Source: Siderastrea radians (lineage: Eukaryota; Cnidaria; Anthozoa; Scleractinia; Rhizangiidae). Taken from it: a stretch of DNA of 64,000 nt. Both the position numbers and the translations under genes were made by a program. Shown here piece after piece: positions 6,839 through 34,669 of this stretch (positions are counted from its first letter, which is position 1; each line of letters starts with the position of its first letter). The stretch is from contig OZ024896.1 of assembly GCA_964017195.1 (NCBI GenBank), positions 2,167,987-2,231,986 on the forward strand, given 5' to 3'. The notes under the pieces were generated by a model. The model saw only the letters and a list, made by a program, of their open reading frames with translations, searched no databases and was not told the origin of the DNA.

Positions 6839-7066
6839 AGTAGTTATATAGTTGGGGGTACGAGCGCATTTTTTCAAAAATCCGCTCTGAACTCCCCAAC
6901 TATAACTACTTTACCATATGTTGGCACAATTTCATGGGAAATCTATTTGGTATTATCTCATGGAAAAATCTATATGGCATTATCTCATGGAAAATCTATT
7001 TGGTATTATCTCATGGGAAATCTATTTGGTATTATCTCATGGAAAATATATTTGGCATTATCTCAT
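6839..7066 (+). repeat. Left terminal inverted repeat of Polinton 1
   Basis: Positions 6839-6950 are identical to the reverse complement of the right end. From about 6933 the repeat becomes a tandem array of a roughly 28-base unit (ATGGGAAATCTATTTGGTAT plus TATCTC), about five copies, that has diverged between the ends. The outer 80 bases also contain an internal inverted repeat (AGTAGTTATATAGTTGGGG / CCCCAACTATAACTACT), so each terminus could fold into a hairpin. Confidence 0.9.
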
Positions 7067-7123
7067 AGTTGGGAGTACGAGCGCAGTTTGCCATCGGATG
7101 AATATTACTTAAAAATATAATAT

Positions 7124-7139
7124 CATATAATAGTATAGA
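7124..7139 (+). promoter_or_regulatory. Candidate early-class start motif
   Basis: CATATAATAGTATAGA directly precedes the VLTF3-like ATG. Closely related motifs (TATATAG followed by A/T, then AT or ATG) precede the two-TM gene (minus strand, 8182-8199), the polymerase (18677-18696), and in Polinton 2 the VLTF3 remnant, BRO nuclease, AT-hook gene and polymerase. They lack the ATCTAAC box seen at virion genes. Promoter activity is inference. Confidence 0.5.
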
Positions 7140-7700: not shown

Positions 7701-8181
7701 ATACCTTATTATATTTATTTTCAAATTTGTCCGTTAACGGACACATATCAATGATTATATCATCGAGAACTTTGACATAATCAAGAAATTCTTCGTCATT
7801 ATACTCCAGTCCTCTCATAAAGGACCGCAAATCTATTAAAACCTTTTCATATGAGGTGTACGCGAATTTACACATCTCAATCTTTCTTTTGTCATTTTTA
7901 GCCTCTGAAAATGTTTTAAGCAATATACCAGTACCAGATATCGTTCCAAGAACAATGGGATTCAATGTTACACCACCAACTACTGTCCCTGTTACTACCA
8001 ATAAAACAGATCCAATATTACATGCAAGTTCTGCTTTTTTGAAATATTTGTAAGTCATTTTGAAAAGCCAGTATTTCTTATGATAGAATTTATACAATGC
8101 TTTTAACACAGATATTTGATCATCAGTTAATTTTCCTGACACATGGTTCCAGTAGAATATGCTTTTACGTTTATCAACCAT
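7690..8181 (-). CDS. Two-transmembrane protein of unknown function
   Basis: A 163-residue protein with a charged, helical N terminus, then two hydrophobic stretches around residues 53-90 (CNIGSVLLVVTGTVVGGVT and the following LNPIVLGTISGTGILL) joined by a short NP turn. A helical, charged tail follows. The layout (helices, TM hairpin, helices) recalls bacterial SLATT-type effectors, but I see no decisive motif and do not assign it. The ATG (complement at 8179-8181) follows the motif ATATAATATATAGA, the same class as VLTF3 and polymerase, so it is probably expressed with them. Polinton 2 has a copy truncated at the C terminus by a deletion. Confidence 0.6.
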   Translation of the reverse strand: MVDKRKSIFYWNHVSGKLTDDQISVLKALYKFYHKKYWLFKMTYKYFKKAELACNIGSVLLVVTGTVVGGVTLNPIVLGTISGTGILLKTFSEAKNDKRKIEMCKFAYTSYEKVLIDLRSFMRGLEYNDEEFLDYVKVLDDIIIDMCPLTDKFENKYNKVFIQ

Positions 8182-8208
8182 TCTATATATTATATTGATA
8201 GATAATTT

Positions 8209-8631
8209 TTATTCACTGGTGAAAGTTATGACATCAGCTGGGAGACCTGAATTTGTGTCCAATTTTAAACCAGCTATCTCTTGAACCTCAATTATGCTCA
8301 CAGTGTAACTGTTCCAACTTGCATTTTTATTATTAGCGACGGAATTCACTGTGAAGGTTCCCCCATCTGTTACTCTTGTCTGTAATTGAAATTTATGAAG
8401 CTTGTTTTTGTCTACAACTGTGAAAAAAGAAGCGTTTGAGAGTGTGGCGATGTTTTCATAGTCTGGAGCCAACTGAATACCAAAACTGGACCGAATTCTT
8501 TTTCCTAATAAAATGGAGCTAGTTGTATTGACTTGTATTATACGGGTATTTTCCACTTTCTTTGTCACTGGGTTGATAATATTGGCCACCCAACGACACC
8601 AAAGATTGCCTCCGTTTCTATCATTACTTAC
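8209..8631 (-). CDS. In-frame continuation of the fibre gene beyond its stop codon
   Basis: This open frame (140 codons plus stop) lies in exactly the same frame as the fibre gene and begins straight after its TAG (8632-8634). There is no in-frame ATG near its beginning; the first alternative start is a GTG at 8587-8589. The product is beta-rich, with many T, S, N and V residues, as expected of a fibre head or trimerisation domain. It could be made by stop-codon readthrough, or be the tail of a fibre gene that acquired a nonsense mutation. The codons around the stop read CTA TAG GTA. Polinton 2 has the same arrangement with a different sequence. Confidence 0.45.
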   Translation of the reverse strand, partial: VSNDRNGGNLWCRWVANIINPVTKKVENTRIIQVNTTSSILLGKRIRSSFGIQLAPDYENIATLSNASFFTVVDKNKLHKFQLQTRVTDGGTFTVNSVANNKNASWNSYTVSIIEVQEIAGLKLDTNSGLPADVITFTSE

Positions 8632-10200
8632 CTATAGATATGTTACCAGTTTCACGACATTGCCAACAGTTGGGTAATTGAAATTCACATAATAGTTGGT
8701 TAGGTCTTGCCAAGGACCATCTGTTAACCATGCGATATTAGAAACAATCTTATTTGTATACTTAACGATTCTCATTACATGGTTGTTGTGATCATAGTCG
8801 TACACTTCTGGATTGACAGTGTCTTGCCAATCTTTCACACCATAAATAATGATAAAAGCCTGTGGTGAGGATAATGTTGAGCTTCCGTGTAGGTTGAAAT
8901 AGATGTAATCAAGGGCATCCCTGCTCCCATTGTTGAATTGTACGAGAATCTTTACGTGATCTGAGAAGCTCTTTTGGATTGTTTTGTGAATATTAGCTGT
9001 GGTAGCCTGAGCGGATAGTTGGATGTTGGTATGTGGCCCTAGCGGATAATATTCCAAGACCGATGTGAATTTGCCGATACTGAGAGGATATAGATTGAAT
9101 CCGATTTTCGATTGATAATCATTGCTATTAGGATTTTTTAGCAGTCCGACTTTGTAAGCTAATTTATTCTTGTGAGGGCTTTGTGCGAAATCAGAGATGC
9201 CAAGAACCACTATATTATTCTCACTGGAGCTCTCATCCGCATCAAGGAGGTACTTCATTGCATTCTTTTTGTTGCTGGAATCGATATGAGATTGTGCCAA
9301 CGTTTCGTCAATGTAGCTCTTATTAGCAGCACTGCTATTGTATTGAGGTGTGCCGAGGTTGTTAATCTGTTTTTGATTATTTGGTAATGAAGATAGGAAT
9401 GTGATAGGATTTTTCATAACACCTCCTTTGTTTTTATTCAAAAAGGTGTCGTTAATATCTTTGAGATTGACAATATCTGATTCTGAATGAGAGGATGGAT
9501 CAAAATCTGGTACTTGTCTTCTTCCCTGAAATGTTTGTGTTGTTGTTTTTGAAAGGTCTGCTTTTGTACCCAATTGATTGTCAACATACTTCTTATTTAC
9601 TCCATGGTCTGCATTGACTGGGTCCTTGATATTTGTTATGAATTGATTGTTCATATCAAGATTGGCTTCCATTAATACTGAACCATCTTTTTTGATGAAT
9701 TTTGATGAATCAGTTATTGGAATCTTTCTTATCTCACTATCAACATACCCCTTATTACTAGCGTGATTAGAAGCAGTTGGTGATTTCAGATTTACGATGT
9801 TTAAACCACCCATGTCAATATGTTGCTCCATTCGACCTCCTTCCTTCTTTGACAAGAATATCTCTCTTTGCGATTCATAACTGATAACCTTGTTGAGATT
9901 ACCATGAACTGGATAATTGTCTTTTGGGACAATGAGTGACCCTGTCATCGTATCACCAGATATTGCAACAAATTTAGATGTATCCACACTTGGAATCTTG
10001 GCTATTTCACTATCTAACTGACTTTTTGTAACAACGTCGTTATTATTAGTTCCCTGTTTTACATTCACTAATTTTTTATTCTGCATATCATAATCATTAT
10101 TAGCATCTAATTTAAATCCAATACCAGGTAAACCTCTTGAACCTATCTTACCTAGTCCTTGAGAATCATCATGATTAAGGATACCGTTTGTATAACTCAT
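8632..10200 (-). CDS. Fibre / tail-fibre-like attachment protein
   Basis: A 522-residue protein. A short conserved N-terminal peptide (MSYTNGILNH) is followed by a vestigial collagen-like GSRGLPG segment. About five imperfect repeats of a phage-fibre-like motif (MNNQFITNIKDP plus a K.YVD element) run through residues 40-310. A beta-rich head follows. The repeats and trimer-type stalk indicate a virion fibre that would project from the vertex and bind host cells. The Polinton 2 homologue has a real collagen stalk. The upstream sequence reads ATCTAAAC...TATATG, the late-class motif, and overlaps the ATPase stop. Fibre assignment rests on architecture; the receptor cannot be guessed. Confidence 0.7.
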   Translation of the reverse strand: MSYTNGILNHDDSQGLGKIGSRGLPGIGFKLDANNDYDMQNKKLVNVKQGTNNNDVVTKSQLDSEIAKIPSVDTSKFVAISGDTMTGSLIVPKDNYPVHGNLNKVISYESQREIFLSKKEGGRMEQHIDMGGLNIVNLKSPTASNHASNKGYVDSEIRKIPITDSSKFIKKDGSVLMEANLDMNNQFITNIKDPVNADHGVNKKYVDNQLGTKADLSKTTTQTFQGRRQVPDFDPSSHSESDIVNLKDINDTFLNKNKGGVMKNPITFLSSLPNNQKQINNLGTPQYNSSAANKSYIDETLAQSHIDSSNKKNAMKYLLDADESSSENNIVVLGISDFAQSPHKNKLAYKVGLLKNPNSNDYQSKIGFNLYPLSIGKFTSVLEYYPLGPHTNIQLSAQATTANIHKTIQKSFSDHVKILVQFNNGSRDALDYIYFNLHGSSTLSSPQAFIIIYGVKDWQDTVNPEVYDYDHNNHVMRIVKYTNKIVSNIAWLTDGPWQDLTNYYVNFNYPTVGNVVKLVTYL

Positions 10201-10211
10201 ATATTAATGGT

Positions 10212-10859
10212 TTAGATTCTTTCATCGAAATTTCGGGCTACCTTTTTTTTAACCTTATCAACATACAAAAAACTATATGGATCCTTAGTAGCTTTCTGAT
10301 AATCTGATTTATTTATGTTCAGTTCTCGGCAAATCATCGATTGCTCGTTTATAGAAGGAAAATCAAAAACACAAAAATGTGAACTATTCAGTCTTATTGT
10401 TTTATCGGTTCCGTAATAGCTTTGACTCAAATATATACAACAACAATTTTTATTTCTTGAATTGGTGAAGTAGTCTCGTATCCGTTCGTCATTTTTCTTA
10501 CCTGTATTCAAATAGTCATCAAATATGATTAATTTTTGGTTTTCATCAGACAAATCTGTCAGAGGGATGATTTCATCGTTACTTGCTTCGATTACGTCAT
10601 AACCGACCTCTTTTGATTTTGATATTGGTTCAAGAGATTTCAACAGATGCTTATATTTGCTTTGTTGGAGATTGCGAGCGTAAAGATATATTTTATCAAA
10701 GTATAAGAGCCTGTATATCATATCAAGCAGAAGGTTTGTTTTACCACCACCAGATGGAGCACAAATAAGCATCCTGAAACATCGGTTTGGCATGAAACTC
10801 TTTAATTGAACAAAATCGTTGTTTTCATCATCTTGAATGTCGTAATTTTGAATCTTCAT
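10212..10859 (-). CDS. FtsK/HerA-type genome packaging ATPase
   Basis: A 215-residue P-loop ATPase. Walker A is APSGGGKT (residues 34-41), Walker B is LIIFDD (110-115), and the downstream LSQSYYGTD segment suits the sensor/arginine-finger region of A32-like packaging ATPases. This family pumps dsDNA into double-jelly-roll capsids in Polintons, adintoviruses and poxviruses. Length is typical for Polintons. It is transcribed away from the PPxY gene across a 128-bp shared promoter region. The copy is intact, unlike that in Polinton 2. Confidence 0.9.
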   Translation of the reverse strand: MKIQNYDIQDDENNDFVQLKSFMPNRCFRMLICAPSGGGKTNLLLDMIYRLLYFDKIYLYARNLQQSKYKHLLKSLEPISKSKEVGYDVIEASNDEIIPLTDLSDENQKLIIFDDYLNTGKKNDERIRDYFTNSRNKNCCCIYLSQSYYGTDKTIRLNSSHFCVFDFPSINEQSMICRELNINKSDYQKATKDPYSFLYVDKVKKKVARNFDERI

Positions 10860-10987
10860 ATGATAATATGTTATACAATTTTATCGCATGACGACACGCT
10901 ATGCGACACGCTATGCGAGCGTTTTTATATATGATAACCCTAATTTTTCCAAACAAAATACGAAATTTTATGTAAACAAATGATATA
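10860..10987. promoter_or_regulatory. Divergent promoter region with GC-rich 12-bp repeat
   Basis: This region separates the minus-strand ATPase and plus-strand PPxY gene. It holds two direct copies of GACACGCTATGC (near 10892-10915) followed by GAGCG, a striking GC island in AT-rich DNA. Late-like start motifs face outwards (TATAACATATTATCATATG to the left, TGTAAACAAATGATATAATG to the right). The same region is conserved at 32223-32350. It could be a regulator or replication-factor site. Confidence 0.5.
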
Positions 10988-11986
10988 ATGAGTTTACTCA
11001 AATGGAAAGAAATAGCTGAGAAACGATCCGAGCTTGGTAAAAAGATAAACACAGTAAGAGAGACAATAAAACAAAAAACGATATCTGATCAAATGGGTGA
11101 AGTAGAGGCAGAGAAACTTTTCAAACCTATAACATCTGAGTTAAAGGAACTCACATTACCTAAAATGCCATTGAGAAGATTACCAAAGAAAAAGCAACCT
11201 GTTCCAGATTATGGAATAGCTATTGATGATGAAGTGCCTGATTATGGATTGGATGATTTGTTTGATCAACCTGTTTTACCTGAAAATGACAAACAATTGG
11301 TTCCAAAACCTCCAAGTTATGAAGATGTTCTTAAGGATTTAGCATCAGGTGAAAAACAAATGTACATAGATCCAGAATTTATGTATGAACCTGAAGATCT
11401 TCCACCTGAATACGAAGAAGAAGAAGAAGGACCAGATTACGAAATTCTTGAAGAGGATAGAATAAATCAAGCTTTAGATGAACTTCAAATTCCTAACTAT
11501 GATGATATTGAATTACAACTTCAACAAGAAGATATGAATGACAAAAAGAGGAAATCTTATCTTACCAAGACCCTGAAGATAGCTAAAGAGAAACGACATC
11601 AACTAAATGGTTATTGGAGTGATATCACTAAAAAATTAAATAGTGGTTCAATCACTGAAGCTGAGGCTCAATATCGAAGAAAAATTATTCAAGATACAAG
11701 AAAGGTTCTAAATGATTATATCAATTACAACAATCAAAAACTGAAAAATATTAAAGGGTCTGGTTTGAAGAAAAAAACAAAAAAAGGTGGACAGGTAATG
11801 TTTTTCAATAATCCAACAGAAATGATGAAAAAACTTGAACTGATTATCGGATCAAAGGTTGCTGGTAATAATAGCATAGAGCTAAGAAACACAGGTGTCG
11901 CTCTTCTCGACATCTTGTTGAGAAACTCTATTTTGAACAGGCCACAATATAACAAAATATACAAAAACTATTTTAGTCTAAACTAA
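10988..11986 (+). CDS. Acidic virion-associated protein with two PPxY motifs
   Basis: A 332-residue protein. The N terminus (1-70) is basic and helical. The middle is acidic and proline-rich, with PPSY at 108-111 and PPEY at 139-142, plus repeated PDYG (73-76, 84-87) and a Glu run. The C terminus (240-332) holds a GSGLKKKTKKGG hinge and a compact helical domain. PPxY motifs bind WW-domain ubiquitin ligases of the NEDD4 family, and adenovirus protein VI has one. A virion or exit/entry role is therefore plausible but inferred. It opens the plus-strand structural block, and its stop overlaps the start motif of the penton-like gene. I do not recognise the family by name. Confidence 0.6.
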   Translation: MSLLKWKEIAEKRSELGKKINTVRETIKQKTISDQMGEVEAEKLFKPITSELKELTLPKMPLRRLPKKKQPVPDYGIAIDDEVPDYGLDDLFDQPVLPENDKQLVPKPPSYEDVLKDLASGEKQMYIDPEFMYEPEDLPPEYEEEEEGPDYEILEEDRINQALDELQIPNYDDIELQLQQEDMNDKKRKSYLTKTLKIAKEKRHQLNGYWSDITKKLNSGSITEAEAQYRRKIIQDTRKVLNDYINYNNQKLKNIKGSGLKKKTKKGGQVMFFNNPTEMMKKLELIIGSKVAGNNSIELRNTGVALLDILLRNSILNRPQYNKIYKNYFSLN

Positions 11987-11994
11987 TCATATAA

Positions 11995-12756
11995 ATGAAT
12001 AGACAACTTGTATTATCCAGTCATATCGTCAAAGGTATAAGTAGTAATAAACCATCAGATTTCACAATCAAATACAGTAATCCGATAATACTGGATTCAA
12101 ACAGACAATATGAAATCGGCCTAGATCGAATCATTTCGATGTCATTCACTTGGTTTAATGTGACAAGGGAACTTGATAATCAGAAAATCAGATATTCAAC
12201 AGATAGTGGTACTAATTGGACGGAAATTATATTCAACCCTGGGGTATGGAATTACATTGATTTTGACAATTTAATCAAAGAAAAAACAAAAACAGGGACC
12301 TCATCAAACCCTCAATATCCAATCACTCTGGAGTTTAACGATACTGTATTCAGGACAATAATAACACTAGCCTCAAATTACAGATTAGATCTTACTCAAA
12401 GTAATTTTAATGATCTTATTGGTTTCAATAAAAAGATTCTAACAAGTAGTGTAAATGTTGGAGATTACATTCCTAATCTCTCACAAGACAGAGAAATATT
12501 GAATGTTCATTGTGATTTGATAAGTGACAGTCTTGTCGATGGTGAAGAGTCAGATATTATATATAGTTTCAGTACCTCAACTCTCACCCCGAGTTATAGT
12601 TTCACACAAGACCCTCGACGAGTACAGTACAACCCGTGTAATAAAAATACGATTAATAAAATTCGGATTTATATCACCGACGGTAAACGAAGAATCATAG
12701 ATCTTAATCATAGTGACACTTCATTCAGTTTGATTTTAAGAGAGAAGAGAGATTAA
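11995..12756 (+). CDS. Penton-like minor capsid protein
   Basis: A 253-residue, beta-rich protein, nearly identical in Polinton 2. The ending (ITDGKRRIIDLNHSDTSFSLIL) has the form I associate with Polinton penton/minor capsid proteins, a single jelly-roll protein occupying vertices. It sits between the PPxY gene and a basic peptide gene, just upstream of the major capsid gene, as expected. The ATG is embedded in GTCTAAACTAATCATATAAATG, a late-class motif. Identification is by order and general sequence character rather than a catalytic motif. Confidence 0.7.
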   Translation: MNRQLVLSSHIVKGISSNKPSDFTIKYSNPIILDSNRQYEIGLDRIISMSFTWFNVTRELDNQKIRYSTDSGTNWTEIIFNPGVWNYIDFDNLIKEKTKTGTSSNPQYPITLEFNDTVFRTIITLASNYRLDLTQSNFNDLIGFNKKILTSSVNVGDYIPNLSQDREILNVHCDLISDSLVDGEESDIIYSFSTSTLTPSYSFTQDPRRVQYNPCNKNTINKIRIYITDGKRRIIDLNHSDTSFSLILREKRD

Positions 12757-12774
12757 TCTAACTAATAGTTATAT

Positions 12775-13125
12775 ATGTCGTCGTATGAATACAAGCGAAT
12801 TTATCACCCGAAACTAGGTCGTCTTGTGTATAAGCATAAAGGATCTGGGATTATTGTTGATAACATATTCAAACCAGTTGGAAGGGTGTTAAGTAAAGTT
12901 CCAGAAATGGTTTTAAAACCTTTTGCCAAAAAAGCGCTTGAATCTGGTATTTCACATGCTGGAGACAAACTGGGAAAAAAAGCAGCTGAAAAAAGCGGAG
13001 AGCTTATTATGAGAAAATTACATGGTTCAACTAAACAATCAATGAAACCAACCAAACCTACTAAACCAAAACAAGAAGACTACAACATGATTCTGAATAG
13101 ACTTATATCTGGTACTGGTTATTAA
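12775..13125 (+). CDS. Small basic virion peptide (core or membrane-active candidate)
   Basis: A 116-residue, lysine-rich protein. After an N-terminal YHPKLGR segment it has a GSGII linker and a long amphipathic helix (about 27-85, with FKPVGRVLSKVPEMVLKPF and a KKAAEKSGE stretch), then a T-K-P-rich tail. Size, charge and position between penton and capsid recall the adenovirus core/protein VI type. The function is inferred only. A late-class motif AATCTAAC at 12755-12762 precedes it. Polinton 2 encodes a 122-residue version with a six-residue insertion before the TKP tail. Confidence 0.5.
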   Translation: MSSYEYKRIYHPKLGRLVYKHKGSGIIVDNIFKPVGRVLSKVPEMVLKPFAKKALESGISHAGDKLGKKAAEKSGELIMRKLHGSTKQSMKPTKPTKPKQEDYNMILNRLISGTGY

Positions 13126-13137
13126 AAAGTGAATTTT

Positions 13138-13159
13138 ATCTAAACTACTCATATAAATG
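13138..13159 (+). promoter_or_regulatory. Late-class start motif of the major capsid gene
   Basis: ATCTAAAC (13138-13145) is followed by ATATAAATG (13151-13159), whose last three bases are the start codon. Equivalent boxes precede the fibre (minus strand, 10210-10217), penton-like (11976), basic peptide (12755), GG-rich protein (14505) and zinc-ribbon peptide (15816) genes, and the same set is kept in Polinton 2. The TAAATG core resembles poxvirus late promoters. An orphan copy at 17616-17622 no longer precedes a gene. Confidence 0.6.
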
Positions 13160-14446
13160 AGTTTCAGAACAAATGAAAATCTACAACGATATGAATACGT
13201 TCGTTTCCATTTGGATAATGTCATTGAGCAACCTGCTAACAATCAAAGCCAGAAAAAGACAGGTTACAGATTCACAATCAACGATAGGTCGACTATGTTC
13301 GATTTTTTTAATGGGTATTTCGAAGTAACTAAAGAGCTTCAAAAAAGGGCAGATGGTGCTGGATATGCTCAAGCGGATTGCATCACTATGATAAACGGAT
13401 CTCACAGTCTAATCAGACATATGGTTATCAAATCTTCAGGCAAAATTGTGTATGAGAGTGATAATTTGCATCGAATAACGAATGTCAAAAATCTCCTTGA
13501 ATACAGTGATGATTATAGCAGATCCGTTGGAAAGAATTCGTTCTGGTATCTTGATACTGACGGAACTACAGCAAATACAAACACAGGTTTTGAGGCCCGT
13601 CGTATTTTAACCCAAGCAGCACAAAACAACGGTGGTGGGGGAGCTAAAAGTATTAATGAGATGCTTCCCTTAAACAGATACAGCTTTTTTCAAGAATTAG
13701 AAAGAAAAATGTTGCCTCCGATGCAGCTCACAATTGAACTAACCCTGAACGACGATGATGAATTGATTCACAAAGCAGTAGCAGCAGACCCTGGTCGTGT
13801 TGTAGTAAAGAGATTGCATCTTTGGCTCCCAAGATTAATCCCAAAAGACAGCATGTATAGTAATTTCGTTTCAGAGTTTCTCAAACCAACAACCTGGACA
13901 TATATGAGAGATCTCTACAATCAGTCAGCAAATACCAGAGCTATTCAGAATATGTTTCAAATCAGTCCAGCTATCGATGACGTTAAACATGTTTTTATAT
14001 ATCTCCAGAGGACAGACGGACCAAATAATAATGAAACCGAGAGAAGTCCGTATTTGTTTGACACTTTCAAGTTGAATGCTGCTGACGCTAATAGCTCTCT
14101 ATCAAGCTGTAGGCTTGAATACGGGAATTACGTTTTTTACCCAGAGTTGGAATATGATAGTGACTCTAAAATACGGATATTTAATGATCTCATGTCATAT
14201 GCATTTCGTAAGAACGATTACAATTCAGGAACACAGCTTAATGTATCCAATTTCACTAGTTTGTATGGATTATTGTATTTCGATTTGTCATATCAGAAAG
14301 AGGTAGTGACGAGAGATCCTAAACAGTTGATTCTCCATTATCGTCTCAATGTAGCCCCGGCAGCAAACGTCCGAGCTCATAGCATCGTATTTTACGAGAG
14401 TGAGGTTGTAGTAAAGACAGTTGGAAACGAATTGATGATAGTTTAA
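13157..14446 (+). CDS. Major capsid protein (double jelly-roll type)
   Basis: A 429-residue protein of the Polinton/adintovirus hexon-like class. Features include FDFFNGYFEV near residue 53, INGSHSLIRHMVIKSSG around 77-93, a conserved central NRYSFFQELERKMLPPMQL segment, and the terminal SIVFYESEVV strand. Such proteins trimerise to form the icosahedral shell. The gene lies between the basic peptide and GG-rich minor protein and has the strongest late-class motif. The protein is highly conserved with Polinton 2; most differences are conservative, suggesting selection on the capsid. Confidence 0.88.
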   Translation: MSFRTNENLQRYEYVRFHLDNVIEQPANNQSQKKTGYRFTINDRSTMFDFFNGYFEVTKELQKRADGAGYAQADCITMINGSHSLIRHMVIKSSGKIVYESDNLHRITNVKNLLEYSDDYSRSVGKNSFWYLDTDGTTANTNTGFEARRILTQAAQNNGGGGAKSINEMLPLNRYSFFQELERKMLPPMQLTIELTLNDDDELIHKAVAADPGRVVVKRLHLWLPRLIPKDSMYSNFVSEFLKPTTWTYMRDLYNQSANTRAIQNMFQISPAIDDVKHVFIYLQRTDGPNNNETERSPYLFDTFKLNAADANSSLSSCRLEYGNYVFYPELEYDSDSKIRIFNDLMSYAFRKNDYNSGTQLNVSNFTSLYGLLYFDLSYQKEVVTRDPKQLILHYRLNVAPAANVRAHSIVFYESEVVVKTVGNELMIV

Positions 14447-14520
14447 ATAAATAAGTTTTACATCGATGAAAATTTAAATGAATATGTTTTTCAAAAGAGA
14501 ATTTATCTAACATATATTAT

Positions 14521-15363
14521 ATGACACAACTATACGAAATTAAAGTTAGTTTATCACCAAACCAGAAAAATAATCTTAGTAACGCGTATCATAAAAGAGA
14601 AACAATAGTTCTAAGGCTCACGAAGGACTCTCTATCTGGGAATGACACTCTATACGTACCTCAGAATATAGTTAAGCGATTGGAAAAAAATAGAAAATTG
14701 AAAAAGGGAATGGACATTAAACTTTCTAAAACAAACATTCGAAAGCAATTAGGTGGATCTCTTCTGTCTACAGTTCTGACGCTTGGAAGAACTTTTGGTC
14801 CAACGATTGCTAAGACTCTTGGATTGTCGGCTTTAGCTGGAGCAGCTAGTGAAGGAGCATCTCAGATTGTTAAGAAGATATCCGGAAAAGGTGTTCAAAC
14901 CGGTGGGTTTCTCATACCACAAAATAAAATCGATCAGTTGATAGCATATAAACATCTTTTGACAACCAAACAAAAGAAGGATATATTAAACGCTCTACAA
15001 ACAGGCTCTGGTGTTCATATAAAACCGACTAAAGTACAAACAGGTGGTTTCTTAGGTACTCTTCTTGCATCAATTGGGGTTCCTTTAGCTATTGAGGCAA
15101 TAAAGAAGATGACTGGTAAAGGTGCCCCTCAGATGGGACACCCCAAACAAAGACCACCCAGATCTATATCACAACTAACCAATGATAATCAGGATGGTGG
15201 TTTGTTAATGCCAATGTATAGAACTCCACCTTTTTATGGAAATTGGCCGAACGGTACAATCGGTATGGGGACTAAAAAAAAAGCTCAGAAAAAGGGCAAC
15301 GGTCTACTATTGGGCAAGAACTCACCATTCAAAAACGTCCCTCTTCTAAACATTCTATTGTAA
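14521..15363 (+). CDS. GG-rich minor virion protein, probable protease substrate
   Basis: A 280-residue basic protein. The N-terminal domain (1-75) is followed by hydrophobic, glycine-rich segments (LGGSLLSTVLTLGRTF and FLGTLLASIGVPLAI). VQTGGFL occurs twice, with further GG pairs, resembling adenain-type cleavage sites. The end (GLLLGKNSPFKNVPLLNILL) is strongly conserved in Polinton 2. The pattern fits a membrane-interacting, cleaved minor capsid protein. Its last 88 bases overlap the protease frame in -1, and a run of nine A (15274-15282, read as AAA AAA AAA) lies exactly where the -1 frame opens. Late-class motif ATCTAAC at 14505. Confidence 0.6.
   Translation: MTQLYEIKVSLSPNQKNNLSNAYHKRETIVLRLTKDSLSGNDTLYVPQNIVKRLEKNRKLKKGMDIKLSKTNIRKQLGGSLLSTVLTLGRTFGPTIAKTLGLSALAGAASEGASQIVKKISGKGVQTGGFLIPQNKIDQLIAYKHLLTTKQKKDILNALQTGSGVHIKPTKVQTGGFLGTLLASIGVPLAIEAIKKMTGKGAPQMGHPKQRPPRSISQLTNDNQDGGLLMPMYRTPPFYGNWPNGTIGMGTKKKAQKKGNGLLLGKNSPFKNVPLLNILL
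15276..15282 (+). promoter_or_regulatory. Candidate -1 frameshift site before the protease (A_AAA_AAA)
   Basis: The GG-rich frame reads ACT AAA AAA AAA GCT. The -1 frame has its last stop (TAA, 15273-15275) overlapping the start of this run and then stays open through the whole protease. In Polinton 2 the tract is duplicated (41121-41129 and 41136-41144). Homopolymer slippage in RNA polymerase could do the same job as ribosomal slippage. Confidence 0.4.
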
Positions 15364-15821
15364 AACCGAAATTCCATAAGAATGTCCCATTAAGCAATTA
15401 TGATTTAATAAAATGGTGTAAATATCTGAATATCCCAATCAAAGATGTTCTGTCTCGAGATGAAAATGTTCCTCACAATCATAGACAGGCTCTATTCATT
15501 TACAATCTTGAACCGAGTTATATGTCAGGGAGCCATTGGGTTGCTACATATGTAAAGGATGACGTCATTAATTACTTTGATAGCTTTGGTTTGCCTCCCT
15601 TCCAAGAAATGGTCAATCATGCGAGAAAAAAGAATTTAACATTGCTTCATCAGAACAATCAAATACAAAATTTACTAACGACAACATGTGGATATTTCTG
15701 TCTGTACTTTTTGAATGAGATGAATAAGGACAAATCATATTTTGATCTGTTGGAAGTTTTCGACATATATGATACGACGAATAATGAGAAATTCTTAGAA
15801 CAGTATTTCAAAAATATCTAA
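15276..15821 (+). CDS. Adenain-like cysteine protease (no own ATG before the conserved region)
   Basis: The open frame has 181 codons plus stop. Family features are LSNYDLIKW near the beginning, the catalytic His in GSHWVATYV (15529 region), the acidic residue in NYFDSFG, and the Gln/Cys pair with TTCGYFCLYFLNEM at the active-site cysteine. This family matures capsids in adenoviruses and Polintons. The first in-frame ATG (15522) immediately precedes the catalytic His and would delete about 45 conserved residues, so it is not a credible start. The frame is -1 relative to the upstream gene in both copies. I infer expression as a frameshift fusion to the GG-rich protein; non-AUG initiation or splicing are alternatives. 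Confidence 0.75.
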   Translation, partial: KKSSEKGQRSTIGQELTIQKRPSSKHSIVKPKFHKNVPLSNYDLIKWCKYLNIPIKDVLSRDENVPHNHRQALFIYNLEPSYMSGSHWVATYVKDDVINYFDSFGLPPFQEMVNHARKKNLTLLHQNNQIQNLLTTTCGYFCLYFLNEMNKDKSYFDLLEVFDIYDTTNNEKFLEQYFKNI

Positions 15822-15832
15822 CTCATATATAT

Positions 15833-16018
15833 ATGTTATCATATTGCGTGAAACAAAAAAGGGTCACAGAATGTGTACCCGGGAGTGAACGATATGAAAA
15901 GGCTAAAAATGGGAGGCTTATGCTTAAATGTAAATGCTCTGAATGCGGAATAAATAAGACTAAATTCGTTAAACAGGTGGGAAACGGGCTGGCCCGTCGA
16001 AAGGGGCGGGCGTACTAG
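15833..16018 (+). CDS. Zinc-ribbon-like basic peptide, 0-frame partner of PLA2
   Basis: A 61-residue peptide starting at an ATG 12 bases after the protease stop and preceded by ATCTAACTCATATATATATG. It contains YCVKQKR, NGRLML and KCKCSECGINKTKF, which resemble the small DUF5679-type zinc ribbons of large DNA viruses, with one expected Cys replaced by Gln. The last third is Lys/Arg-rich (GNGLARRKGRAY). From memory, related cnidarian proteins have such a ribbon joined directly to a PLA2 domain in one chain. That supports reading this ORF and the next as two products of one gene separated by frameshifting. Confidence 0.6.
   Translation: MLSYCVKQKRVTECVPGSERYEKAKNGRLMLKCKCSECGINKTKFVKQVGNGLARRKGRAY
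15979..16011 (+). promoter_or_regulatory. Probable programmed -1 ribosomal frameshift signal (G_GGA_AAC + stem-loop)
   Basis: In the zinc-ribbon frame the codons run GTG GGA AAC, giving the canonical heptamer G_GGA_AAC at 15979-15985. A 6-nt spacer (15986-15991) follows. Then comes a GC-rich hairpin, with GCCCGTC (15992-15998) pairing with GGCGGGC (16005-16011) around a 6-base loop, one pair being U-G. The -1 frame opens at 15973 and continues through the whole PLA2 gene. Polinton 2 has the same heptamer (41841-41847), spacer length and stem, although flanking third positions differ. Retroviruses use this heptamer type. Confidence 0.75.
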
Positions 16019-16680
16019 ATACAGTAGCATCAACTGGTACTGATTTATTGATTCACCACGGTATTCCTTGGCTGGGAAAAAAGGCTGTTGAAATGGGAAG
16101 ATATTATGGATCAGAAGCCTTGAGAAACGCAAAACTGCAGAAAAAGGCTATCGATTATGCTCTGGATAAGTTGAATCCAATGATTCAAAATGTCGGAAGT
16201 CAAGCTCTTGATCAATTATCAACCAAAATCAGACCAAATAGAAAGTATAAAACCGACAGAAAGGATTTGGATGGTGCTGGTGTTGATGTACATAAACTAA
16301 TTGGGAAAATACCGAAACCAAAAGCTGGATGGACTCCTGGAAAGTATAAATACATGGGACCATACAACCCTCTCGATAAACAGTTAGAGTATGATAGGAA
16401 CACTGGAGAGGTCACCAAATGGCACGTACAACCTTACAATAAAGTAGATGAAATAGCAGCTCATCATGATATTTGTTATGATATGGGGAAAAACAAAGGT
16501 GAATGTGACAAGAAAATGGTTAAGTCATTGGATGAAATACCTTATGGACAGATGCCAAAATGGGGACAAACAGCACGATTTCTAATCAACACGAAGCAGA
16601 AACTAGGTCTCGGTGTAAAACAAAGGAAGACAAAAAACGGGAAAGGCCGTCGAGTGAAGAAAACTGGCAAAAAGAATTAG
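15985..16680 (+). CDS. Parvovirus-type phospholipase A2 domain protein (-1 frame of zinc-ribbon ORF)
   Basis: The domain is centred on the Ca-binding YMGPYNPLDK loop and the catalytic HHDICYDMGKN motif (His-Asp at 16465-16470), followed by KGECDKKMV. Secreted-type PLA2 domains in parvovirus capsids and related elements cut endosomal membrane phospholipids during entry. The basic tail (QRKTKNGKGRRVKKTGKKN) suits nucleic acid or virion binding. No in-frame ATG occurs until 16093, within the conserved helical region. The frame is instead entered from the zinc-ribbon ORF through the frameshift signal. The 3' end overlaps integrase in the next -1 frame. Confidence 0.75.
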   Translation, partial: RAGPSKGAGVLDTVASTGTDLLIHHGIPWLGKKAVEMGRYYGSEALRNAKLQKKAIDYALDKLNPMIQNVGSQALDQLSTKIRPNRKYKTDRKDLDGAGVDVHKLIGKIPKPKAGWTPGKYKYMGPYNPLDKQLEYDRNTGEVTKWHVQPYNKVDEIAAHHDICYDMGKNKGECDKKMVKSLDEIPYGQMPKWGQTARFLINTKQKLGLGVKQRKTKNGKGRRVKKTGKKN

Positions 16681-17597
16681 CTGATGAATTACATAAACCG
16701 ATAAAGCGTAACTTCACCCGGAGGCGTGTTATTGTAAATCATATTGACGAAATTTGGTGCTCTGATATTATTGAGATGCATCAGTTCAGTCGATGGAACG
16801 CTGGCTACAGATATCTTCTTATGGTTTTAGATGTATTCTCTAAGTACGGTTGGATTGTCCCATTAAAAGATAAAAAGGGTGAAACCGTTATGAATGCTTT
16901 TAAAACAATCCTTAAAGAAGGTAGAAAACCGGAATATTTATGGACAGACAAAGGCAAAGAGTATTACAACAAACATGTTAAGGAACTACTCGATAAGAAT
17001 AAAATAACCTTGTACTCAACTGAGAATGAAGAAAAGTCTTCAGTTTGTGAAAGATGGAACAGAACAATTAAAACCAAGATGTGGAAACAGTTTACTGTTC
17101 AAGGTAATACACAGTATTTAGATATGCTACCTGAAATATTGAAACAGTATAACAACACTAAACATAGCTCTATCAAAATGACGCCGACAGAAGCCAGTAA
17201 AAAGAAGAATGAAGGGACTGTTTACTTTAATCTGTATGGTAATTTGAAGCAAGTATCATCTAAACCTAAATTCAAAATAGGTGATAAGGTTAGAATAAGT
17301 AAGTATAAACGGAATGTGTTTGATAAGGGCTATACACCAAATTGGTCTGAGGAAGTTTTTACAGTTGATAAAATCCAATATACAAATCCAATAACTTACA
17401 AACTAAAGGATCTCAGAGGTGAAGACATTCAAGGGAGTTTTTATGAACCTGAATTATTAAAAGCAAAACAAGAGGTATTCAGAATTGATAAAGTCATTCG
17501 GAGGGATTATAAGAAGAAACAAGCTTTAGTTAAGTGGAAGGGATATAGTGATGAATTTAACAGTTGGATACCATTCAAGGACTTGAAGGATATATAA
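16560..17597 (+). CDS. Retroviral-type integrase with C-terminal chromodomain
   Basis: The catalytic core has D69 (WCSDIIEM), D130 (WTDKGKEYY) and E164 (SSVCERWNR), the DDE triad of Polinton integrases. The C terminus (about 290-345; FRIDKVIRRDYKKKQALVKWKGY...WIPF) is a chromodomain, which may steer integration to marked chromatin. Conservation with Polinton 2 starts only around ERPSSEE (about residue 27 from the ATG at 16560). The preceding residues are simply the alternate frame of PLA2, so the ATG at 16560 is doubtful. Expression as a -1 frameshift extension of PLA2 from 16638 is the alternative I favour slightly. It makes the 6-bp target duplications. Confidence 0.88.
   Translation: MGTNSTISNQHEAETRSRCKTKEDKKRERPSSEENWQKELADELHKPIKRNFTRRRVIVNHIDEIWCSDIIEMHQFSRWNAGYRYLLMVLDVFSKYGWIVPLKDKKGETVMNAFKTILKEGRKPEYLWTDKGKEYYNKHVKELLDKNKITLYSTENEEKSSVCERWNRTIKTKMWKQFTVQGNTQYLDMLPEILKQYNNTKHSSIKMTPTEASKKKNEGTVYFNLYGNLKQVSSKPKFKIGDKVRISKYKRNVFDKGYTPNWSEEVFTVDKIQYTNPITYKLKDLRGEDIQGSFYEPELLKAKQEVFRIDKVIRRDYKKKQALVKWKGYSDEFNSWIPFKDLKDI
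16632..16638 (+). promoter_or_regulatory. Candidate second -1 slippery site (A_AAA_AAC) before integrase
   Basis: PLA2 codons ACA AAA AAC create A_AAA_AAC, among the most efficient eukaryotic slippery heptamers. The -1 frame from here runs uninterrupted into integrase. I see only a weak stem downstream (GGCC/GGC), so support is weaker than at 15979. The heptamer is conserved at the corresponding place in Polinton 2. Confidence 0.5.
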
Positions 17598-17777
17598 AAT
17601 GTTTTAAAGATAATTATCTAACATATATTATATCAATCGATACAGTATATGCTGTTATTGCTGCTAATGGTAGCCAAAAATATCATTGTTTCTGGCTATC
17701 ATCTGTTGTGGTGAATGACACTTAAGGAACATATACAAACACTTATAAAGAGATATTATTATATATAATTACAAGAT
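17598..17777. terminator. Hairpin after integrase plus scar of a deleted small gene
   Basis: GTAGCCAAAAATA...TGGCTATC (17670-17700) forms a hairpin also present, nearly perfect, at 43533-43563. It is a candidate transcript 3' end signal. Directly after the hairpin, the bases TATCATCTGTTGTGGTGA equal the last codons of the 98-residue gene found in Polinton 2 at 43585-43881. That gene has been removed here between copies of TATCA. An orphan late-class box (17616-17622) remains. Confidence 0.5.
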
Positions 17778-18590
17778 ATGGAAATTTTTACTTATGAAGG
17801 AAAAAAACTGAATATTATCAAAAAGGATGACGACATATGGTTCCGTGGTAAAACAGTTGCCGACATTTTGGGATATTTGAATTCACGAAAAGCGATTAAT
17901 GATCATGTTGATTCTAAAGATAAATATTCACTTAAGGAGCTTAAATCCAGGGGTAACGAAACGCCCCCCCTAACATGGAACCTCGGAAACACAATTTATA
18001 TAAATGAATCTGGCTTATTCTGTCTGATATTTGGATCAAAAATGGAAAAGGCTAAAGAATTCAAACTTTGGGTAACAAAAGTGGTTTTACCATCAATCAG
18101 AAAAACAGGACGGTATGAATTCAGCAACAAACCATACAAAATGCCAGCATTCAGCATCAAAACAGAATATGACCTACATGAAAAGGCAGTCAACTTTATA
18201 AGAAACAATTATCCTAAAGCAATTCTAACCGCATCATTGGGTGAAAACCAAATTAATGGTAACATGAGAATAGAATCATACAACATGGGTTATCAAAAGG
18301 GATCTCCTGATCTGATCATACAGAATTTACATTTGAATTACTCAGGTTTTGCAATTGAATTTAAAACACCAACTGGTTATGGAAAGCTTTCAGAAGAACA
18401 AAAGATGATGCTGCAAGAGTATGAAAACAACAATTACAAAATATTAGTGAGCAACGATTATGACGAAATCATAAAAGAAATCATACTTTATTTCCAGGGT
18501 GTGAGAATAAAATGCAAAAAATGTTCCAGAAAATTCAAGTCATCGGAAACATTGAGCAATCATACAAATTTCATACATGAACACCAATAA
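17778..18590 (+). CDS. BRO-N / VRR-NUC / C2H2 fusion protein
   Basis: 270 residues with three parts. Residues 1-110 are a BRO-N DNA-binding domain (DDDIWFRGKTVADILGY, INESGLFCLIFGS, WVTKVVLPSIRKTG). Residues about 135-235 are a VRR-NUC type nuclease fold (SPDLIIQNL..., AIEFKTPTGYGKLSEEQ, YKILVSNDYDEII), where the Asp and the E-x-K pair are the expected metal-binding residues. Residues 246-268 form one C2H2 finger (CKKC...H....H). VRR-NUC proteins are structure-selective nucleases of virus replication and repair. It lies just before the polymerase and has a non-late start motif, consistent with a replication role. It is intact in both elements. Confidence 0.75.
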   Translation: MEIFTYEGKKLNIIKKDDDIWFRGKTVADILGYLNSRKAINDHVDSKDKYSLKELKSRGNETPPLTWNLGNTIYINESGLFCLIFGSKMEKAKEFKLWVTKVVLPSIRKTGRYEFSNKPYKMPAFSIKTEYDLHEKAVNFIRNNYPKAILTASLGENQINGNMRIESYNMGYQKGSPDLIIQNLHLNYSGFAIEFKTPTGYGKLSEEQKMMLQEYENNNYKILVSNDYDEIIKEIILYFQGVRIKCKKCSRKFKSSETLSNHTNFIHEHQ

Positions 18591-18606
18591 ATAAAATCAA
18601 CTATAG

Positions 18607-18636
18607 TTCAAAGGATCCATATGTGGACCATTTGAA
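18607..18636. terminator. Inverted repeat between nuclease and polymerase genes
   Basis: TTCAAAGGATCC and a GGACCATTTGAA counterpart form an imperfect hairpin. The equivalent at 45159-45188 in Polinton 2 (TTCGAAAGATCC / GGATCATTTGAA) keeps pairing despite base changes. It could be a terminator or an RNA-processing signal. Confidence 0.4.
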
Positions 18637-18696
18637 TTCTTGACTACTTAAAGACACAACCAAAAGAGGCTTAAAGAAATAATATTATTATATAGT

Positions 18697-21600
18697 ATGA
18701 AGATAATGAATAAGAAAGATCTTAAGAAACTCAGTAAAAGTCAATTGATAGAAATGCTCCTGAAGCAATCTATTATGAAACCGGTTCCAACACCAAGAAC
18801 CAAAAAACCAATGGATAAACCTATTCCAGCACCTCGCAAGAGTGTTAAAAAAATGGTAAAAGAGTATGAAGACAACATCATTCTTCCGCCTCTAGAATTC
18901 AGGGATGATTACAAACCTATTCCAGCACCTAGAACTAAGAAACTATTGGATAAACCAGTTCCAACACCTAGAACCAAAATAGAACAAACAAACAAAGCCT
19001 TAAAAGGTTACACTAAGTCTTATGAAATCAGCATCAAAAACAATAAAGACCCCCTGACCCAAATGCAAAACACTAGATTGGCTCTTAATTATAGAATAGC
19101 AAATTTGTTGAATGAGATGAAAGGCTTGAAATACGTTGAAACACTAAAAGTCACTTTCGAAAAGATGTCAGGTGATGAAATAGTTAATAAGACGGCATAT
19201 TTCAATAGCACACCTCAGACAATAATCAACCAAACGGAAATCACTGATTCATCACAATTATCAAAACAGCAGATAACGAACAAGATAGCTCAATGGATAT
19301 CGGAAGGATCCGGCTGGACCATCCAATCTGTTGACGAACATTATCTGAACGTTGTTATATACAAGCCCATGGAAGGGTCATCATATATTAAACTACCTTA
19401 TGAATTGCAAAACAGTTCCAAAGGCTTAATAAACATGAAAAATGATGATCTCGAATGCTTCAGATGGTGTCATATAAGACATTTGAATCCACAAGATAAA
19501 GACCCACAAAGAATCAAAAAGAGGGACATGCCATACATTGAAAAGTTAAATTATGAAGGCATTGAATTTCCAGTAACTATTAAACAGATCAACAGAATTG
19601 AGAAGCAAAACAGCATTAATATAAATGTATTCGGGTATGAAGACAAACAAACGTATCCGATCTATGTTTCCAAAGAAAAGTATGAAGATCACATGGAACT
19701 ACTGCTAATAACAGATGATGAAGACGAGCATTATGTTCTCATAAAGGATTTCAACAAGTTCATGTACAATAAAACAAAACACAAAGAAAAAAAGCATTTT
19801 TGTATGCACTGTCTGCAATGTTTCAGTTCCGAAAGGGTATTAAATGATCACAAAGTTATTTGCATTCAAGTAAATGGTGAGCAAGCAATAAAAATGCCTG
19901 AAAAAGGAGACAACATACTGAAATTCAATAATTTCCACAAGCAGCAACCTGTGCCATTTGTTATCTACGCTGATTTTGAGGCTATAACTGAAAAGGTGCA
20001 AGGATGCCAACCTGACCCCAGCAAATTAAACAACAAATCATATACTGAAGCCTACCAAAGACATACAGACTGTGGATATGGCTATAAAGTGGTTTGCTGT
20101 TATGATGACAAATATACTAAACCAGAGCAGATATATAGAGGTGAAAATGCTGTTTATCAATTCATGGAAAATATGTTAGAAGAAGTTAAATATTGCAAAA
20201 ATATTATGAAGAAACGTTTCAACAAACCATTGAGAATGACAAAAGAGAATGAAGAGAAATTTGAAAAAGCAACAACATGTCACATCTGTGATAAAAAATA
20301 TACTGAAAAAGACATACGAGTCAGAGATCATTGTCATATTACTGGCAAATACAGAGGCTCAGCTCACCAAGAATGTAATCTCAAACTCAGAATAAATCCA
20401 CAAGAAATTAAAATTCCAGTGATCTTCCACAATTTAAGAGGATATGACAGCCATTTTATAATGCAGCAGATTGGTGAAATAGTTAAAAAGCATACATACA
20501 AAAACAAACAAATGAATATCAATGCTATTCCCAACAACATGGAAAAATACATGGCATTCATGCTTGGTAATCATCTGACATTCATTGATAGTTTCCAGTT
20601 TATGAGCTCAAGTTTGGATAAATTAGTCAGTAATTTACCAGCAGAAGCTTTTAAATATACAAGCAAAAAATTCAAAGGTGGAAAATTCGAATTGATGACG
20701 CGTAAGGGAGTTTATCCGTACGATTACATAGATAGTTTCGTAAAATTCAATAAAACAGAATTACCAACAAAAGAAGAATTTTACAGCATATTGAGTGATG
20801 AACACATAACAGATGAAGATTATCAACATGCTAAAAACGTTTGGAACACTTTCAAATTACAATCAATGGGTGAATATCATAATCTATATCTTAAGTCTGA
20901 TATTCTTCTGTTAGCCGACGTGTTTGAAAACTTCCGTAAAACATGTCTTCAGTATTACAAACTGGACCCCTGTCATTATTTCACATCTCCTGGTTTGTCA
21001 TGGGATGCTATGTTAAAGATGACTGATATCAAACTGGAGCTAATGACTGACATCGATATGTTCCTGTTCATCGAAAGAGGAATGAGAGGCGGTGTATCAT
21101 ATATAGCAAACCGATATGGGAAAGCAAACAATAAGTACATGAAAGAATACGACGAGATGGCGCCCTCAAAGTATATCATGTACCTGGATGCTAATAATTT
21201 ATACGGTTGGGCTATGTCACAGCATCTACCTACTGGCGGTTTCAAATGGCTGACAGAAAAGCAGATTAATAAAATCGATTTGACTCAGTATAATGAAGCC
21301 AGTGAGAAAGGATTGATACTTGAAGTCGATCTTGAATATCCCAAAGAACTGCATGACCTTCATAACGACTATCCTCTAGGACCAGAAAAGGTTAAAGTAA
21401 CTGATAGCATGTTGTCTGGATACTGCAAGAAAATACAAAACAAGTTCAAAATATCAACAGGGCTTGTACATAAGCTAATCCCTACTTTATGCGATAAACA
21501 AAAATATGTTCTGCATTATAGAAATCTACAGTTGTACCTTGATCTCGGTTTGAAACTGAAGAAAGTCCATGGAATTCTAGAGTTCGACCAGTCTCCATGG

Positions 21601-22443
21601 CTCAAGCAATACATCGATTTCAATACACAAAAACGTACCCAAGCTAAAAATGCATTCGAAAAAGACTTCTTCAAATTGATGAACAATTCAGTATTTGGTA
21701 AAACGATGGAGAATATCAGAAAGAGGGTTGATGTTAGGCTTATCACTGATGTACAGAAATTGAAGAAAATGGCATCTAGACCAACTTACGTCAGCTGCAA
21801 GATATTCAATGAAAATCTAGTAGCAATGCATAAGATCAAGCAAACGTTGACTCTAAACAGACCGGCATATGTAGGCATGTGTATTCTCGACCTAAGTAAA
21901 ACTCTGATGTATGATTTCCATTATAACTACATAAAAGAAAAGTATGGAGACAAAGCCAAGCTGCTCTTCACTGACACAGACAGTCTGACATACGAAATTG
22001 AGGCTGAAGATGTGTACCGTGACTTTTGGAATGACAAAGACAGATTTGACAACAGTGATTATCCAGAAAACTGTCAGTATTTCGACAAAACAAACAAAAA
22101 GGTAATCGGCAAATTCAAAGATGAAGCGGCTGGTGTACCAATAACAGAATTTGTCGGTTTACGATCAAAAATGTATAGCTATATAAAAAACAACCAAAAA
22201 GGAGGAAAAACAGCCAAAGGAATAAAAAAGAACATCATAAAGAACAAAATCAAACATGAGGACTACAAAAATGTGTTGACCAATAACAAGCAGATACATC
22301 ATACTATGAAAACAATCAGAAGTATAAATCATCAGCTAGCCAGTTATGAGATCAATAAAGTATCACTCAGCTGTTTTGACGACAAAAGATATATATCAAA
22401 CGATGGAATCAACAGTTACGCATATGGCCATAAAAACATATAG
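18697..22443 (+). CDS. Protein-primed family B DNA polymerase
   Basis: 1,248 residues. The N terminus has four proline-rich PxPxPR motifs (PVPTPR, PIPAPR) resembling SH3 ligands, then a region typical of adintovirus/Polinton polymerases. A C2H2 finger lies near 369-390. Exo I is YADFEAI (D426), an endonuclease-VII-like zinc cluster is at about 528-560 (CHICDKKY...RDHCHITGKYRG), and Exo II is HNLRGYDSHF. Palm motifs are YLDANNLYG (829), NSVFGKT (996) and TDTDS (D1093, D1095). All catalytic residues are present, so the enzyme appears functional. It would copy the linear element from its termini with a protein primer. It is the last gene before the right terminus. Confidence 0.95.
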   Translation: MKIMNKKDLKKLSKSQLIEMLLKQSIMKPVPTPRTKKPMDKPIPAPRKSVKKMVKEYEDNIILPPLEFRDDYKPIPAPRTKKLLDKPVPTPRTKIEQTNKALKGYTKSYEISIKNNKDPLTQMQNTRLALNYRIANLLNEMKGLKYVETLKVTFEKMSGDEIVNKTAYFNSTPQTIINQTEITDSSQLSKQQITNKIAQWISEGSGWTIQSVDEHYLNVVIYKPMEGSSYIKLPYELQNSSKGLINMKNDDLECFRWCHIRHLNPQDKDPQRIKKRDMPYIEKLNYEGIEFPVTIKQINRIEKQNSININVFGYEDKQTYPIYVSKEKYEDHMELLLITDDEDEHYVLIKDFNKFMYNKTKHKEKKHFCMHCLQCFSSERVLNDHKVICIQVNGEQAIKMPEKGDNILKFNNFHKQQPVPFVIYADFEAITEKVQGCQPDPSKLNNKSYTEAYQRHTDCGYGYKVVCCYDDKYTKPEQIYRGENAVYQFMENMLEEVKYCKNIMKKRFNKPLRMTKENEEKFEKATTCHICDKKYTEKDIRVRDHCHITGKYRGSAHQECNLKLRINPQEIKIPVIFHNLRGYDSHFIMQQIGEIVKKHTYKNKQMNINAIPNNMEKYMAFMLGNHLTFIDSFQFMSSSLDKLVSNLPAEAFKYTSKKFKGGKFELMTRKGVYPYDYIDSFVKFNKTELPTKEEFYSILSDEHITDEDYQHAKNVWNTFKLQSMGEYHNLYLKSDILLLADVFENFRKTCLQYYKLDPCHYFTSPGLSWDAMLKMTDIKLELMTDIDMFLFIERGMRGGVSYIANRYGKANNKYMKEYDEMAPSKYIMYLDANNLYGWAMSQHLPTGGFKWLTEKQINKIDLTQYNEASEKGLILEVDLEYPKELHDLHNDYPLGPEKVKVTDSMLSGYCKKIQNKFKISTGLVHKLIPTLCDKQKYVLHYRNLQLYLDLGLKLKKVHGILEFDQSPWLKQYIDFNTQKRTQAKNAFEKDFFKLMNNSVFGKTMENIRKRVDVRLITDVQKLKKMASRPTYVSCKIFNENLVAMHKIKQTLTLNRPAYVGMCILDLSKTLMYDFHYNYIKEKYGDKAKLLFTDTDSLTYEIEAEDVYRDFWNDKDRFDNSDYPENCQYFDKTNKKVIGKFKDEAAGVPITEFVGLRSKMYSYIKNNQKGGKTAKGIKKNIIKNKIKHEDYKNVLTNNKQIHHTMKTIRSINHQLASYEINKVSLSCFDDKRYISNDGINSYAYGHKNI

Positions 22444-22527
22444 ATGGAAAACTGTGCTGATACCTTCAGCTATAATATATGTTATATAAATCTCCATATA
22501 TGGAAAACTGCGCTGGAATCCTCCAGC

Positions 22528-22755
22528 CCTGATATAATGCCATATAGATTTTCCATGAGATAATGCCAAATAGATTTTTCATAAAATAATACCAAATAGA
22601 TTTCCCATGAGATAATACCAAATAGATTTTCCATGAGATAATGCCAAATAGATTTCCCATGAAATTGTGCCAACATATGGTAAAGTAGTTATAGTTGGGG
22701 AGTTCAGAGCGGATTTTTGAAAAAATGCGCTCGTACCCCCAACTATATAACTACT
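22528..22755 (-). repeat. Right terminal inverted repeat of Polinton 1
   Basis: Reverse complement of 6839-7066: 22644-22755 is identical to the left outer 112 bases, and the inner part is the same tandem 28-base array with point and copy differences. Short open frames within it are artefacts of the array. Confidence 0.9.
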
Positions 22756-34645: not shown

Positions 34646-34669
34646 CACGGGCGCCCGGGGGGTTGGGGG

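Follow-up and report, generated by a model that had tools for sequence, protein, structure and literature searches.

In Siderastrea radians, a Polinton-type element appears to carry two -1 frameshift signals in tandem. The sequence supports the view that the signal first noticed in the window (the whole stretch of 64,000 nucleotides analysed here), between a small zinc-ribbon ORF and a phospholipase A2 (PLA2) frame, is followed by a second one that leads from PLA2 into the integrase. The best reading of this arrangement is tandem -1 programmed ribosomal frameshifting, like that of retroviral gag-pro-pol, and we regard it as very probable. Most ribosomes on the ribbon ORF would terminate at its end; a fraction would slip back by one base on the heptamer G_GGA_AAC, paused by a stem 6-7 nt downstream, and would continue into PLA2. 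For a fraction of those, a second slip would follow on A_AAA_AAC (in family 2, a related group of elements, on U_UUA_AAC), aided by a 14-bp stem, and lead into the integrase. One message would then give the ribbon, ribbon-PLA2 and ribbon-PLA2-integrase, the two enzymes being made as minority C-terminal extensions. How the frames relate, the heptamers with their spacers and stems, the purifying selection that acts on the -1 frames before their first ATG, and the replacement of signals between families can all be read in the sequences described below; the model further predicts that slippage occurs, at a certain frequency, and that its fusion products are stable and enter virions.

Two Polinton-type elements in the window

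The window holds two such elements, A (positions 6839-22755) and B (28741-49547). Both, like all the features described here, are on the forward strand, and both have terminal inverted repeats and perfect 6-bp target duplications. The inverted repeats of A start with AGTAGTTATA and its target duplication is CTATGC; that of B is CGTCAC, and the aligned blocks of B are 80-97% identical to A. An integrase of the rve-chromodomain type, an A32-type ATPase and a parvovirus-type PLA2 score above the Pfam cut-offs in the two elements. The 1248-residue ORF of A at 18697-22443 has an Endonuclease_7 match above the cut-off and no polymerase match in Pfam or among PDB sequences; it is a candidate for the protein-primed DNA polymerase B. 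The candidate for the double jelly-roll major capsid protein, the ORF at 13157-14446, has no Pfam match, and the names given here to the protease and to the ribbon, both below their Pfam cut-offs, are putative. A also carries, above Pfam cut-offs, a Bro-N/VRR-nuclease/C2H2 ORF (17778-18590) and a poxvirus VLTF3-like ORF (7140-7700). In B, a large inverted repeat at 33108-37426 of the window, with arms of up to 543 nt that are 98% complementary, splits the region equivalent to the A ORF at 10988-11986.

The junction between the ribbon and PLA2

The ribbon ORF of A (15833-16018, 61 residues; DUF5679, PF18930, 19.6 bits, below the 27-bit cut-off) provides the 0 frame of signal 1. The slippery heptamer GGGAAAC lies in this frame at 15979-15985 and is followed by the 6-nt spacer GGGCTG and a stem-loop at 15992-16011, whose arms (15992-15998 and 16005-16011) form seven pairs, one of them G-U, around a 6-nt loop; the initial annotation had placed each of these parts correctly to the base. 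The PLA2 frame (PF08398, 33.5 bits for a cut-off of 23.9) is in -1 relative to the ribbon; it opens after a TAA at 15970-15972, runs from 15973 to 16680, and has its first ATG at 16093, 45 nt after position 16048, within conserved sequence, as had been remarked. The ribbon ORF of B (41695-41880; DUF5679, 17.8 bits, again below the cut-off of 27) repeats the signal at 41841-41873 (heptamer 41841-41847, stem 41854-41873) with the single spacer change relative to A that had been reported, and leads to a PLA2 frame (41832-42518; PF08398, 33.3 bits, cut-off 23.9) that stops eight codons earlier than that of A. That the -1 frame opens just before the heptamer, as also proposed, holds for A, but not for B, where CAA replaces the TAA and the frame is open further upstream. 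The DUF5679 cut-off is passed by places in the same genome that carry the ribbons of a third family. An AlphaFold model of the PLA2 frame was too poor to use (mean pLDDT 43.6).

When the 46-nt overlap of A was shuffled 20,000 times, a canonical in-frame heptamer of any kind arose in 0.9% of the shuffles and GGGAAAC in 0.3%. Conservation among copies, described below, tests the signal more strongly than these chance figures. A folding program gives the named stem a probability of 0.47 in A and of 0.99 in B; it favours a competing stem at this site in A only.

Copies of the element were searched for in the genome from which the window comes (804,772,777 bases). Among 2332 PLA2 candidates, 150 places were scored and 88 of these examined, including all five with open frames of at least 282 residues; together with B, the 88 places make up the family-1 set of 89 copies. 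These copies are close kin from a single genome (median PLA2 nucleotide identity 94%, minimum 86%), so that counts of junctions are not counts of independent events and overstate independence. Independent weight comes instead from the replacement of signals from family to family.

PLA2 is in -1 relative to the nearest ribbon in 83 of the 89 family-1 copies, in the same frame in 5 and in +1 in one; a single frame in most relatives, which the initial annotation had named as evidence against its reading, is thus not what is found. A first filter detected GGGAAAC in 81 of the 83 -1 copies; L062 has GGGAAAT, and L047 has GGGAAAC in an anchored scan. When junctions were aligned on the stem (107 junctions, 66 of them distinct), the heptamer was exact in 102 and differed by one change in 5; it was exact in 93/95 family-1 and 9/12 family-2 junctions, three of the five altered ones being of family 2. 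This alignment leaves out L049 (no heptamer), L126 (no ribbon), L134 (ribbon cut), and L124, L132 and L133, whose sequences have the heptamer and end before the stem. Over the 66 distinct junctions, the entropy of the heptamer columns is 0-0.31 bits, versus 0.72-1.67 bits for the six spacer columns; the spacer keeps a constant length of 6-7 nt while its letters are free. A perfect 7-bp stem is present in 65 of these 66 junctions, compared to a mean of 0.7 (maximum 5) after shuffling of the downstream sequence. The two codons within the heptamer are nearly invariant among 57 distinct ribbon tails (GGA in 57, AAC in 56); other Gly, Asn, Thr and Ile codons nearby vary.

The signal also changes form between families. 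Three different self-complementary stems occupy the same place (GCCCGTC/GGCGGGC, GCCCTCT/AGGGGGC and, in family 3, GCCCTCC/GGAGGGC). In family 2, the ribbon stop codon comes immediately after the heptamer in 12 of 12 junctions. In family 3, whose ribbon is 53% identical, GGGAAAC lies in the ribbon frame in 15 of 18 junctions, with a direct stop in 14 of the 15; the other three (L172-L174) are indel copies that had been selected for long open frames, and the count leaves out L159 and L161, in which the ribbon is in frame with another domain and there is no PLA2. The -1 relation is common to families whose ribbons are only 52-66% identical, with stems and heptamers swapped for equivalents. Copies with ribbon and PLA2 in one frame do exist (L049-L053 and L172-L174), and since they were picked partly for long open frames, their number gives no rate; the heptamer is lost in L049 and L173.

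These observations bear on two ways of explaining the frame change without slippage. The first is decay: an indel would have broken the frame long ago in an element already dead, and copying would have spread it. Some copies are plainly broken by stops or lost frames (B, L036, L084, L166 and L170), but purifying selection acts on both sides of the junction (see below), and the same frame relation recurs across the divergent families just described, with equivalent stems and heptamers in place of one another; we consider decay highly improbable. The second is a short intron, or RNA editing, that joins the frames. By eye, the junction of A has a good donor, CAG/GTGGG, and family 3 has a donor-like AGGTGAGC, which is however located after the ribbon stop. 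The GT of A is a GT in at most 3 of the 66 distinct junctions, which speaks against the intron that the initial annotation had envisaged as an alternative, and the overlap, rich in GC and in structure, has been conserved where an intron could have diverged freely. Joining of this type has very little chance of being correct.

Several copies of the element (L014, L016, L020, L031, L039, L047, L049, L064, L071, L079 and L087) have two ribbons: the second bears signal 1, and the first forms, in frame, the N-terminal part of a distinct protein some 133 residues long. In family 3, the C-terminal domain of that protein sits in frame behind PLA2 instead; beyond PLA2, the reading frame changes at an A run in L183-L185 and stays single throughout in L179, L181, L182 and L186. 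A PLA2 type that has no ribbon match (most of L089-L118; open frames of 93-150 residues) occurs in the same genome, belongs to a different element group and was set aside because it has no bearing on the junction. Its PLA2 overlaps an upstream ORF, and a short stretch of L118 inspected by eye has its own ATG just past that ORF.

Outside this genome, no relative of the element was found in viral contigs queried with PLA2, PolB, integrase and a four-sequence PLA2 alignment, nor in the genome contigs or phage records scanned.

The junction between PLA2 and the integrase

In A, the integrase frame (16560-17597; rve and chromodomain) is in -1 relative to PLA2, with an ATG at 16560 that falls within the PLA2 gene. 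The heptamer A_AAA_AAC lies in the PLA2 frame at 16632-16638. The 5' arm of a stem begins 7 nt after it (16646-16659), and the 3' arm (16712-16725) is within the integrase coding sequence. This is a weak example of signal 2: 12 of the 14 pairs form, and the minimum-energy fold of A itself does not contain the stem. B has A_AAA_AAC at 42494-42500; its integrase is not in -1 relative to PLA2, the frame being broken after the heptamer.

The integrase is in -1 relative to PLA2 in 87 of the 89 family-1 copies, and in 86 of these 87 A_AAA_AAC is present in the PLA2 frame within the overlap, the exception (L018) having one letter changed. The layout is a 7-nt spacer and then a 14-base arm whose pairing partner lies some 52 nt downstream of it, within the integrase gene. 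Among 65 distinct stretches, 14 pairs form in 37, 13 in 25 and 12 in 3, versus a mean of 0.4 in 50 shuffles; a good part of the variation is between G-C and G-U or between A-U and G-U, and one of the pairs is replaced by an A-C mismatch in 25 of the 65.

In family 2, signal 2 is U_UUA_AAC. L104 and L112 have a stop directly after it and the same 5' arm as family 1. Among 20 further stretches, 16 have U_UUA_AAC with the integrase in -1, one of them (L155) without the direct stop; the rest are L153, with A_AAA_AAA and without stem 2 of that sequence, L144, which belongs to family 1, and L157 and L158, in one frame. A single open frame of 531 residues covers PLA2 and integrase in L116, L157 and L158, and the fused PLA2-integrase order therefore occurs in nature. 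Unless slippage itself is selected, it is difficult to see why one canonical slippery heptamer should have given way to another at the same place. Family 3 differs: its PLA2 continues without a change of frame into a different conserved domain, and no integrase follows in the stretches seen. The full two-signal cascade is accordingly a feature of families 1 and 2.

Selection on the -1 frames

The PLA2 frame, upstream of the ATG that usually comes first in it, has a pN/pS ratio of 0.25 and no stop in 38 distinct sequences. The integrase frame before the ATG of the core has a ratio of 0.16, with stops in 2 of 59, and the protease frame (see below) a ratio of 0.18 ahead of any ATG. The other two frames of the PLA2 and integrase regions give 0.77-2.55. 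The value of 0.46 for the ribbon is inflated by small in-frame indels left in the alignment. In all three frames, PLA2, integrase and protease, the sequence before the ATG is selected for the protein it encodes.

This selection has to be set against a model in which the heptamers are incidental and PLA2 and integrase are each translated on their own, whether by leaky scanning, from a non-AUG codon or by reinitiation once the ribosome has passed the upstream stop. The short ribbon would favour reinitiation; the integrase of A has its ATG at 16560, and at least 39 copies carry an ATG somewhere before the core of the integrase; a PLA2-frame ATG occurs 6 nt before the position of 16048 in 8 of 88 copies. 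Yet in 68 of the 88 the first PLA2-frame ATG is at +45, downstream of a stretch of frame that is under purifying selection, and an integrase ATG before the core is absent from at least 46 of the 89 copies. Nor do separate starts predict fixed GGA AAC codons, a spacer of constant length with free letters, or a switch between canonical heptamers. We therefore judge separate initiation very improbable. The joining of ribbon and PLA2 by -1 programmed frameshifting, as the initial annotation proposed, is backed by the frame relation, the conservation of heptamer and stem, and purifying selection.

A third candidate: the capsid-like ORF and the protease

Upstream in A, a capsid-like ORF, possibly a minor virion protein (14521-15363; no Pfam match above cut-off), contains A_AAA_AAA in its frame at 15276-15282, within a stretch of nine A. 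In the -1 frame (15276-15821) is an adenain-like protease (Peptidase_C5, 14.7 bits, below the 21.3-bit cut-off) that has no ATG before its GSHW motif. At about 41125-41160 in B, two A_AAA_AAA runs are found between the capsid-like ORF and a protease frame without ATG. This is a weaker candidate for -1 frameshifting, from the capsid-like ORF into the protease. It is based on 28 of the 89 copies, those whose sequence around this junction could be parsed: across the A run, the protease is in -1 relative to the conserved capsid-like tail in all 28. Of these, 16 have the capsid body in the frame of the tail, 6 have it in that of the protease, and in the other 6 it matches neither. For this junction only, slippage of a polymerase on the A run, at transcription or otherwise, is a serious competitor to ribosomal slippage, with a chance we would place somewhat short of even. 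The length of the run does differ between copies, putting the capsid body in the protease frame in those 6 of 28; the constant relation to the tail and the selection on the protease frame ahead of any ATG argue against it.

Relation to known systems

Known -1 frameshift signals have a stem or pseudoknot about 5-9 nt downstream of the slippery site. At both junctions, a canonical X_XXY_YYZ heptamer lies in the 0 frame within the overlap of the ORFs, the spacers are of 6-7 nt, and the -1 ORF is coding, selected and devoid of its own AUG, except for an upstream ATG in a minority of copies. G_GGA_AAC drives gag-pol type frameshifting in retroviruses. Betaretroviruses and deltaretroviruses produce gag-pro-pol through two -1 frameshifts and use G GGA AAC, A AAA AAC and U UUA AAC. 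The coral element would resemble them in having two successive -1 shifts, canonical heptamers, structure 6-7 nt downstream and the integrase last. It differs in being a double-stranded DNA transposon or virus, in that its first product is a zinc ribbon rather than Gag and its middle enzyme a phospholipase, and in the structures of its signals, a short hairpin for signal 1 and a stem with a long loop for signal 2. A DDE/rve-type recombinase is also made by -1 frameshifting in the bacterial IS3 family (OrfA/OrfB transposases); unlike the present case, these are bacterial insertion sequences with one shift, no PLA2 and no virion genes.

Frameshifting of -1 type is itself of a known kind, and in adintoviruses it has been suggested before for other genes, namely Penton and Hexon-Adenain, from slippery sites predicted by KnotInFrame (PMC11071296). 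The statement of the initial annotation that it knew of no such description in Polintons or adintoviruses is to be narrowed accordingly; what stands is that no report of ribbon-PLA2 or PLA2-integrase frameshifting was found in the open-licence papers searched. Those adintoviruses form a related virus group, in which the protease would likewise extend a capsid protein; the available excerpts of PMC11071296 contain neither a ribbon-PLA2 nor a PLA2-integrase junction, nor a comparative test across copies. In an insect Maverick, the PLA2 domain is found in the N-terminal region of a capsid-like protein (PMC5803895); this is likewise a parvovirus-type PLA2 in a Maverick/Polinton, and the excerpts of that paper do not mention a frameshift.

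Implications

A broader reading, which we hold tentatively and would put at a little under an even chance, is that the protease, the phospholipase and the integrase are all made solely as -1 extensions of virion proteins, through three separate shifts, and carried into the particle in small set amounts, in convergence with retroviruses. If so, the incoming virion would breach a membrane and integrate by means of its preloaded integrase.

If the tandem model is correct, gene callers will split or miss such frameshifted genes. Tandem -1 frameshifting would serve eukaryotic double-stranded DNA transposon-viruses too, beyond RNA viruses and retroelements. The integrase and PLA2 of Polintons would be predicted to be packaged in virions as minority fusion proteins, and the question of whether Polintons form infectious particles could therefore be addressed through peptides that span the junctions.
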